Source of the DNA: Candidatus Falkowbacteria bacterium
Lineage (GTDB): Bacteria; Patescibacteriota; Patescibacteriia; Patescibacteriales; Patescibacteriaceae
DNA: 64,000 nucleotides
Assembly (NCBI GenBank): GCA_026396835.1
Contig: JAPLWA010000003.1
Location: forward strand, 1-64,000
Reading direction: 5' to 3'
A model generated the notes under the pieces. The model did not search any database and was not told the origin of the DNA. It worked only from the letters and a program-made list of their open reading frames with translations. A program made the position numbers and the translations under genes. Each line of letters opens with the position of its first letter. Within the stretch, counting starts at the first letter, position 1. Positions 105 to 40,485 of the stretch are shown here, in pieces.

Positions 105-128
105 CGCCCGCTACCGCGGGCGGTTTTT
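105..128 (+). terminator. Rho-independent terminator, plus orientation
   Basis: A GC stem GCCCGC/GCGGGC with a TACC loop is followed by a short T run (124-128). It fits plus-strand readthrough, although no plus-strand gene is seen upstream within the window. Confidence 0.5.
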
Positions 129-582
129 GGATAATAAAAAAGGGAAGTCATTTCTGAACTTCCCTTTTGATTTAAGCTGGATGGCTTTTTGCATCATCTC
201 AGCTTTGATGTTTTAATCTTGATAATGAACGTATTTATTCTGCATTATCCAGATAACAGCAATGTGCTAGTTTTTTTCAAGGCAGGTCTTTCTTTTTTTA
301 ATTACATTCAAAAAAATGTTATGAGCCAATCTTGCTAATTTTTAGCAGCTCATTTACCGCGCTGACGTTTATATGACAATTATATTGATCCCAAGGTGAA
401 CCTCCTTTCTATGGGAAATTAGAGAAAAACGAAAAATATGTTAAGGCAACAAACTAAAAGTTGAAATCCGGGAATGCTGGAGCAGAAAAATTACTATATT
501 AATCCCTCTGCCCCACCACGGAAAAACGTTAGCTGCAACCCATAGCACCCCCTTCGTGTTTGGTTAAAAAATTGTTAATTAC
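128..582 (-). ncRNA. Putative structured non-coding RNA of unknown family
   Basis: No frame of useful length exists here, yet the stretch is bounded on the minus strand by a near-consensus sigma70 promoter (615-587) and a strong terminator (168-137). The predicted transcript of about 450 nt contains several clean hairpins: 467-522 (GGGGCAGA/TCTGCTCC inside TCCG/CGGA), 321-353 (ATGAGC and GCTAA arms), 245-256, and 174-205 (AAGCTG/CAGCTT). Between the first two lies an unpaired AGAAAGGAGGT (410-400), a full complement to a typical 16S 3' tail. Two tiny frames with good Shine-Dalgarno sequences, ATG at 543 (MGCS) and TTG at 394, are each four codons long. It does not match tmRNA, SRP, 6S or RNase P consensus motifs that I know. 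Function unknown. Confidence 0.5.
137..168 (-). terminator. Bidirectional terminator ending the putative RNA
   Basis: An 11-bp stem AAAAGGGAAGT/ACTTCCCTTTT with a nine-base loop is followed, on the minus strand, by a TTTTTTATTAT tract. It would end the transcript starting near 580. Confidence 0.7.
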
Positions 583-586
583 CCAT

Positions 587-615
587 AGTATATACTATAT
601 TCAAAATATTGTCAA
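587..615 (-). promoter_or_regulatory. Strong sigma70-type promoter of the putative RNA
   Basis: On the minus strand a perfect TTGACA (615-610) is separated by exactly 17 bp from TATACT (592-587). Predicted start of transcription is near 580. The same TTGACA-N17 layout drives rpmA, rpsB, rnpB and the KH gene in this window. Confidence 0.7.
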
Positions 616-737: not shown

Positions 738-753
738 ATAGTGAATTCACTAT
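738..753. promoter_or_regulatory. 16-bp perfect palindrome over the uvrB start: candidate operator
   Basis: ATAGTGAATTCACTAT is a perfect palindrome that overlaps a possible -10 (TATAGT, 739-744, 17 bp after TTGTGC at 716-721) and the first bases of the uvrB ATG at 752. The location suggests a repressor site; that uvrB is often a DNA-damage-induced gene is family knowledge, and the link is inference. Confidence 0.4.
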
Positions 754-2575
754 GTTCACCCTCCAATCTACCTTCCAGCCTACTGGCGACCAGCCAGAGG
801 CCATAAACAAGCTTACAAAAGGCCTTAAAAAGGGCTTTGAACGCCAAACCCTACTTGGTGTCACTGGCTCAGGCAAAACCTTTACAATGGCTAATATCAT
901 TGCTGATGTTAAACGGCCTACGCTTATAATTTCCCATAATAAGACCTTGGCAGCCCAGCTTTATAGCGAGTTTAAGCAGTTTTTCCCAGATGCAGCCGTA
1001 CATTACTTTGTGTCATATTATGACTATTACCAGCCAGAAGCCTATATCCCCCAAACAGACACTTATATTGAAAAGGAGGCAACCATTAACGAAGAAATTG
1101 ATCGCTTGCGACACGCGGCCACGCAATCACTTATTAATCGCCGGGACGTAATTATTGTAGCGAGTGTTTCTTGTATTTATGGTTTAGGCGAAAAAATTGA
1201 CTACTTAAGTTTAAGCCAAGTTTTTACAGTTGGCGAAACAATTAAGCGCAATGATATTTTACGCCGCCTAGTTAAGATTCAATACGAGCGCGACGACAAA
1301 CAACTTAGTCGCGGACAATTTCGCGTGCGCGGCGACCGTGTCGATATTCACCTAGCCACTGGTGAGGCGATTGTTCGCCTTAACCTAAATGGTGACACAA
1401 TTGAAAAAGTAATTATTTTTACTATCACACCGTCCAAAGAAGCTATCTGGTTAATTGATTTAGATGACAACAAAGGTCAGAGCTTAGATAAAATTTCTAT
1501 TTTACCAGCCAAGCATTACATGACAACAGAGCCAAAACTGCATGATGCTATTGGCTTGATTGAAGCTGAATTAGAAAGTAGATTAAAAGAATTAAGAGCT
1601 GAAAATAAAATTGGCGAAGCTGATCGTTTAGAGAGAAAAACAAATTATGATTTAGAAATGATTCGCCAAGCTGGTTATTGTTCAGGTATTGAAAATTATT
1701 CTCGTCTTTTGTCTGGTCGCGTCGCCGGCTCCCCGCCTGAAACTTTAATCGACTTCTTTCCGGACGATTATTTATTATTCATCGACGAATCGCACGTGAC
1801 TTTGCCGCAGATTCGCGGTATGCACGCTGGTGATGCTTCAAGAAAAAACACTTTAATTGATTTTGGTTTTCGTCTGCCTAGTGCACGCGACAATCGTCCT
1901 CTAACTTACACTGAATTCAAAACTAAAGTGAATCAAGTAATTTACGTTAGCGCCACACCAACGGCTTATGAAATTGATAATTCAAAACAAGTTGTAGAAC
2001 AAGTTATTCGTCCAACTGGTTTATTAGATCCTGAAATTGAAGTTAGACCAACTGAGCATCAAATTACTGACTTAGTCTTAGAAATTAATAAACGTGTACG
2101 CAAAAAGCAGCGTGTCTTAGTTACTACTTTAACTAAACGTATGGCTGAAGAATTAACTGATTACCTAACTAATGAGGGCATAAAAGTAAGCTATATTCAT
2201 AGCGAGGTTGATACGCTACAGCGTGTCGAAATATTAAAAGAATTACGCTCCGGCGTGTTTGACGTTTTAGTCGGAGTTAACTTATTGCGTGAAGGCTTAG
2301 ACTTACCCGAAGTATCGTTAGTCGCAATTTTAGACGCTGATATGAGCGGCTTTTTGCGCAATGAAACAGCTTTAGTCCAAACCATTGGTCGTGCCGCTCG
2401 TCACGTTGAAGGCAAAGTTATTATGTATGGCGACAAAATTACACCAGCCATGCGCTTGGCTATTGATGTGACTAATCGTCGCCGCAAAATTCAGGCTGAT
2501 TATAATGAAGAATATAACATTGTGCCAAAAACCGTTGGTCTAAAAGATTATCAACCACTAGACTCAGGCGACTAA
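752..2575 (+). CDS. uvrB: UvrABC system protein B, lacking the C-terminal UVR domain
   Basis: This is the damage-verifying helicase subunit of nucleotide excision repair, which is loaded by UvrA and then recruits UvrC. Visible are the N-terminal TGDQPEAI region, Walker A GVTGSGKT (residues 36-43), the beta-hairpin [12 protein letters not shown] and following residues (about 89-112), the DEAD-like FIDESH box and motif [10 protein letters not shown]. At 607 residues it is about 50-60 shorter than usual: it stops shortly after the conserved [11 protein letters not shown] segment, so the coiled UVR motif that normally contacts UvrC is absent. The stop is clean and a new gene follows 18 nt later, so this is a natural end rather than an edge effect. 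Confidence 0.95.
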
Positions 2576-40456: not shown

Positions 40457-40485
40457 ATTATACGAGTAGAACCGTGCTTAGTCAA
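40457..40485 (-). promoter_or_regulatory. Promoter of rnpB
   Basis: TTGACT (40485-40480), 17-bp spacer, perfect TATAAT (40462-40457) on the minus strand. Confidence 0.75.

Follow-up and report, generated by a model that had tools for sequence, protein, structure and literature searches.

Upstream of uvrB (752-2575, plus strand) and divergent from it, the minus strand of a 1.05-Mb Candidatus Falkowbacteria genome carries a segment (positions 128-615) in which no protein gene is apparent, raising the question of whether it encodes an RNA and what such an RNA could do. The stretch analysed here, referred to as the window, comprises 64,000 nucleotides and is the start of contig C3. A first-pass annotation, made from the letters alone, had read the segment as a self-contained gene for a structured RNA that belongs to no recognised family. 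We compared it with its copy in a sister genome, "Ca. Falkowbacteria bacterium UBA2355" (hereafter UBA2355), which shares its genus with the window genome.

A predicted transcription unit divergent from uvrB

The unit is delimited by the following minus-strand features:

587-618 (boxes 615-587), minus: sigma-70 type promoter, TTGACA-N17-TATACT, with 11 of 12 consensus bases
618-589, minus: 30-base promoter stretch GACTTGACAATATTTTGAATATAGTATATA, spacer included
129-580, minus: predicted transcript of about 450 nt (about 350 nt in UBA2355), placed from promoter and terminator positions and fold z-score
168-138, minus: intrinsic terminator, 12 pairs followed by a T run; UBA2355 has a different, equivalent one

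The near-perfect promoter, the strong terminator and the lack of a coding frame, all three of which had been annotated, were borne out; no minus-strand ORF within 128-615 exceeds 35 codons and none is conserved. Sites with at least 11 of the 12 sigma-70 consensus bases number 13 in the window, against 2.2 expected from simulated sequence (about sixfold), and one of them, at 40485 on the minus strand, sits just before the RNase P RNA (40429-40049, minus). Because of this over-representation and this neighbour, promoters of this type are probably in use in the window genome and their sites functional. Three of the 13 match the consensus in full (24543 plus, 29911 minus and 28636 minus).

The RNA spanning 582-129 folds with -115 kcal/mol (z = -3.2), a value equalled by none of 100 shuffled sequences, and the predicted UBA2355 RNA reaches z = -6.0. 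The locus thus shows what is expected of an autonomous small RNA, namely its own promoter and terminator and a transcript that takes in neither a neighbouring gene nor a conserved protein frame. We take the RNA gene to be real and probably expressed.

The first 134 positions of the window (minus strand) are the left end of a repeated mobile element, also present at the ends of contigs C2, C3, C4 and C5 (L002-L005). All five copies begin directly after the T run of differing intrinsic terminators, and this mobile element seems to target terminators. Where contig ends resemble the opposite end of the element, they code for the C-terminal part of an IS200-type Y1 transposase (PF01797).

A stand-alone copy in the sister genome

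An alignable copy of the RNA element was found in one of 145 relatives, UBA2355, on a 16,415-base contig. It also lies upstream of uvrB, with its orientation kept, and the two uvrB genes share 84% identity as proteins and 73% as DNA. The UBA2355 promoter (TTGACA-17-TATAAT) matches all 12 consensus bases, and a 30-base stretch that takes in the spacer does not differ from that of the window. The gene on the far side of the UBA2355 copy is convergent, no same-strand gene lies downstream and the RNA ends at its own terminator; because the next gene is convergent, this RNA stands alone.

These observations bear on whether the element acts in cis, as the leader or attenuator of a gene that follows it, as the first-pass annotation had offered in proposing a leader with micro-ORFs. 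Short translated frames, hairpins and a terminator are indeed the anatomy of a leader, and an IS200-type insertion now sits just downstream in the window, where another neighbour may formerly have stood. However, since UBA2355 has no gene to lead, its next gene being convergent and its transcript ending at its own terminator, the leader reading is disfavoured and largely refuted, and we regard it as highly improbable.

A perfect 16-base palindrome, ATAGTGAATTCACTAT, spans the uvrB start codon in the window (738-753), and its arms are kept in UBA2355 (L009, 1753-1768) through paired changes (ATAGTTAATCAACTAT). This palindrome is a possible operator or RNA hairpin controlling uvrB.

A conserved 5' hairpin and an unalignable 3' half

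The structured parts of the transcript are as follows:

429-557, minus: long 5' hairpin enclosing micro-frame 1, with a fold common to the window and UBA2355
467-522, minus: top of the 5' hairpin (UCCG/CGGA and apical stem), conserved
518-529, minus: conserved 12-base block ACGTTTTTCCGT, its first base being the final one of stop codon 1
174-379, minus: 3' region, predicted to fold in the window and in UBA2355, alignment not possible

Folded separately, the first approximately 130 nt of both RNAs each give one long hairpin (z = -4.6 in the window and -7.4 in UBA2355). The two hairpins have 34 corresponding pairs, comprising 15 that are unchanged, 9 with a change on one side and 10 with changes on both. 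When the 3' part of the UBA2355 domain was shuffled as a control, the corresponding pairs averaged 4.5, and 34 was reached in 1 of 500 trials. The comparison gives strong support for a fold common to both RNAs, as two-sequence support and not as the usual covariation test, whose statistics are weak because n = 2. The 5' arm is also conserved in primary sequence.

Four hairpins had been annotated, with an alignment of the region upstream of uvrB proposed as their test. In the comparison with UBA2355 the hairpin at 522-467 is conserved as part of the 34-pair structure, and a terminator is present in both genomes. For the hairpins predicted in the window at 353-321, 256-245 and 205-174, UBA2355 offers nothing that can be aligned; because nothing between about 390 and 170 is convincingly alignable, they are without support from the relative. 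Conservation of secondary structure, as judged from two sequences, is therefore that of the 5' hairpin only.

Nothing in the transcript is better conserved than the ACGTTTTTCCGT block, which lies within the expected footprint of a ribosome terminating on micro-frame 1. Its conservation favours a base-pairing small RNA that would act through the conserved ACGUUUUUCCGU or through the hairpin, while the Shine-Dalgarno sequences and frames would be incidental or would stabilise the RNA by ribosome binding, as in STAB-SD leaders. Binding of 30S subunits at strong Shine-Dalgarno sequences without useful translation protects RNA in STAB-SD elements (PMC4113751), and also before minigenes (PMC8708949). 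Nevertheless, a search of the window genome for antisense targets found no further site with a full match to the block's 11-nt complement, and the start, glycine and stop codons are kept in both frames. We consider a base-pairing RNA of this kind possible, if somewhat unlikely. A second perfect ACGGAAAAACG does not occur in the window genome.

When pairing over the ribosome footprint on micro-frame 1 was forbidden in the computation, the lower 5' hairpin was lost and the apical stem stayed in both RNAs. This calculation under a forced constraint suggests that ribosome loading may switch the fold of the RNA.

Two four-codon frames behind strong Shine-Dalgarno sequences

Two putative translation sites lie in the transcript:

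546-554, minus: Shine-Dalgarno 1, AAGGGGGUG, paired within the hairpin
529-543, minus: micro-frame 1, ATG GGT TGC AGC TAA (MGCS); in UBA2355, ATG GGT GAT GGA TGA (MGDG)
400-411, minus: Shine-Dalgarno 2, UAGAAAGGAGGU, 12 nt complementary to the 16S 3' end of its own genome
380-394, minus: micro-frame 2, TTG GGA TCA ATA TAA (MGSI); in UBA2355, GTG GGG GAC AAC TAA (MGDN)

Both four-codon frames noticed at the outset, from ATG 543 to TAA 529 and from TTG 394 to TAA 380, are present, each behind a good Shine-Dalgarno sequence. In UBA2355, Shine-Dalgarno 1 is AGGAGGUGAUC, with 11 nt complementary to the 16S end, and micro-frame 2 is preceded by AAGGAGGG. Five of the six bases of codons 3 and 4 of micro-frame 1 have changed between the genomes, ATGGGT and a stop are kept, and the hairpin arm opposite changes along with these codons. 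The arrangement start-Gly-x-x-stop is found in all four frames (two loci in each of two genomes). Because only start, glycine and stop are conserved, the peptides themselves are unlikely to matter. What each genome holds is two very short conserved frames behind a functional-looking Shine-Dalgarno sequence, as in minigenes.

The core of Shine-Dalgarno 2, AGAAAGGAGGT at 410-400, extends to 12 nt with T411 and pairs with the 16S end of its own genome (...ACCTCCTTTCTA). It is the longest complement of the 16S tail in the 64 kb, the runner-up, of 10, being in a transposon leader; by itself, its length is only mildly unusual, because 4 of 60 simulated windows contain a complement of at least 12. 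A four-codon frame suitably spaced behind Shine-Dalgarno 2 would arise by chance with p of about 0.012, or about 0.0006 with glycine second, a post hoc estimate since the window frame chose the question. The first-pass annotation had described this 16S complement as exposed; the match itself stands, whereas the exposure is partial, with unpaired probabilities mostly of 0.2-0.7. Shine-Dalgarno 1 is largely paired in the predicted hairpin of both genomes, a point absent from that annotation. The ribosome-binding RNA and the micro-ORFs, which it had listed as separate options, turn out to be one thing, each strong Shine-Dalgarno sequence standing before a four-codon frame; the frames hold and the leader role is disfavoured.

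Strong Shine-Dalgarno sequences with four-codon frames could also form a ribosome or tRNA sink, capturing ribosomes and releasing peptidyl-tRNA so as to damp translation when the RNA is abundant. The consensus promoter in UBA2355, the strong Shine-Dalgarno sequences and the extreme shortness of the frames, which end in UAA or UGA, would suit such a role, and the reported toxicity of minigenes increases with Shine-Dalgarno strength and with shortness (PMC8708949). Yet two-codon minigenes are the most toxic and Shine-Dalgarno 1 is sequestered; moreover, no single tRNA is targeted, since the last sense codons vary between the genomes (AGC/GGA and ATA/AAC). A sink appears distinctly unlikely.

The frames also bear on whether the locus is a short protein gene, in decay or private to the lineage, or else DNA without a function that has retained a promoter. 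Its occurrence in only two genomes and its unconserved 3' half would fit, as would the reading frame of micro-frame 1 in UBA2355, which continues beyond its UGA for 45 codons until it meets the UAA that ends micro-frame 2. In the window, however, the UAA is followed by another stop nine codons later, so that the two copies have no protein frame in common, and the fold, the micro-frames and the entire promoter spacer have been kept despite the drift of uvrB to 73% nucleotide identity. We judge this explanation improbable. Stop-codon readthrough joining frames 1 and 2 was likewise rejected, being possible in UBA2355 only and not in the window.

The element is confined to two genomes and matches no known family

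A search of Rfam 15 returned nothing at or above the gathering threshold for the window or UBA2355 RNA, and permissive thresholds gave chance-level matches only. The suggestion of a divergent known RNA gained no support from Rfam, and that of a self-contained structured RNA gene outside the known families was upheld, as the promoter, 5' hairpin, micro-frames and terminator all recur in UBA2355.

No homologue was found upstream of uvrB in other genomes of the family, nor any convincing copy in the two other genus genomes, nine further family genomes or larger samples of the order, class and phylum. A covariance model (R1), scanned against 192 relatives, 381 class genomes and 380 phylum genomes (overlapping sets), scored 147 bits in the window and 138 bits in UBA2355; the next matches reached at most 24 bits and were without a Shine-Dalgarno sequence plus micro-frame. 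One R1 match, in genome G144, was suggestive at first and proved to be antisense within a gene. A pattern search of GTDB contigs retrieved DDTV01000023.1 ('Candidatus Falkowbacteria bacterium UBA2355') together with three matches in unrelated phyla, about the number expected by chance from the information content of the pattern. No second copy of the promoter spacer, which might have marked an operator used elsewhere, was found in the genus. A phage or viral origin was rejected, there being no match in viral contigs or phage records. Since convincing copies are limited to two of the genomes searched, the gene is of recent origin, evolves fast or is frequently lost. Bacteria commonly have small RNAs that are private to one lineage, and the element is ordinary in that respect.

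A genus member without the RNA (G001) has in this place, upstream of uvrB and on the opposite strand, a short ORF (about 71 codons, MLGSRGYLHRK...; L049, about 439-654) with its own TTGACA box and terminator.

Comparison with known systems

The closest parallels are minigene leaders (axe-txe mg1/mg2, LEE1 ler and phage lambda bar), which likewise have frames only a few codons long behind strong Shine-Dalgarno sequences, in some cases a pair of minigenes per leader, and a peptide sequence of no importance. Minigenes with strong Shine-Dalgarno sequences stabilise RNA or tune the downstream cistron in cis, and drain tRNA if overexpressed (PMC8708949). Unlike these leaders, which act in cis on a downstream gene, the element stands alone, without a downstream cistron in UBA2355, uses four codons and has its first frame buried in a hairpin. 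The STAB-SD of cry3A mRNA likewise offers a near-complete complement of the 16S tail at which 30S binding is expected, but it lies in the 5' region of an mRNA and is not translated, whereas both Shine-Dalgarno sequences of the element are followed by a start and a stop codon, and no protein frame or mRNA comes after.

Among stand-alone structured RNAs, tmRNA (RF00023) has a similar length and a tiny frame. The element differs in having neither a tRNA-like domain nor a tag; it was rejected as a tmRNA because it scores 10.3 bits where the gathering score is 47, and a normal tmRNA lies elsewhere (G000:C5:92474-92855). 6S RNA (RF00013) is also a stand-alone transcript with a long hairpin near its 5' end, but the element is without the large central bubble and is lineage-restricted. 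The Rfam 6S model matched neither the element nor anything in 13 family genomes (G000 and 12 others), which is weak evidence as the model misses many controls. Intergenic bacterial small RNAs resemble the element in their own promoter, intrinsic terminator, stable hairpins and narrow distribution, and the element adds to these two conserved four-codon frames with strong Shine-Dalgarno sequences.

A proposed model for a ribosome-loaded small RNA

We favour the reading that the locus is a regulatory RNA gene, autonomous and of recent origin, in one Falkowbacteria lineage, whose RNA would load ribosomes at two minigenes and switch with the state of translation, and hold it tentatively, as plausible though still short of probable. 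Transcription would start at the element's own sigma-70 promoter, run divergently to uvrB and stop at the element's own terminator, with four-codon minigene 1 inside the long 5' hairpin and minigene 2, behind a near-complete Shine-Dalgarno sequence, in the middle of the molecule. Ribosomes would load at site 2, the better exposed one, and also at site 1 when initiation capacity permits. With a ribosome on minigene 1, whether held there or terminating, the conserved ACGUUUUUCCGU behind the stop codon would be covered and the lower hairpin broken, and the fold, stability or partner binding of the RNA would therefore shift with the translation state of the cell. As no cistron follows, what is left is an action in trans or on the RNA's own stability.

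Several observations weigh against this preferred reading. Shine-Dalgarno 1, paired in the predicted fold, may rarely be used; the 3' half is not conserved; and the element is absent from two genus members and from the rest of the family. As only two sequences exist, any function is putative. A bolder proposition is that the two minigenes make a stand-alone RNA into a ribosome sensor, in which loading, and not a peptide or ligand, would set the fold and hence the activity in trans; this we regard as speculative and unlikely.

A limited literature search brought up no published account of small regulatory RNAs from Patescibacteria. The anatomy of this RNA, a pair of four-codon frames behind strong ribosome-binding sites and otherwise noncoding, is rare, and simple enough to be tested in a laboratory host. 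If loading of ribosomes does switch the RNA, it would be an instance of minigenes at work outside a leader, in an RNA that stands alone.
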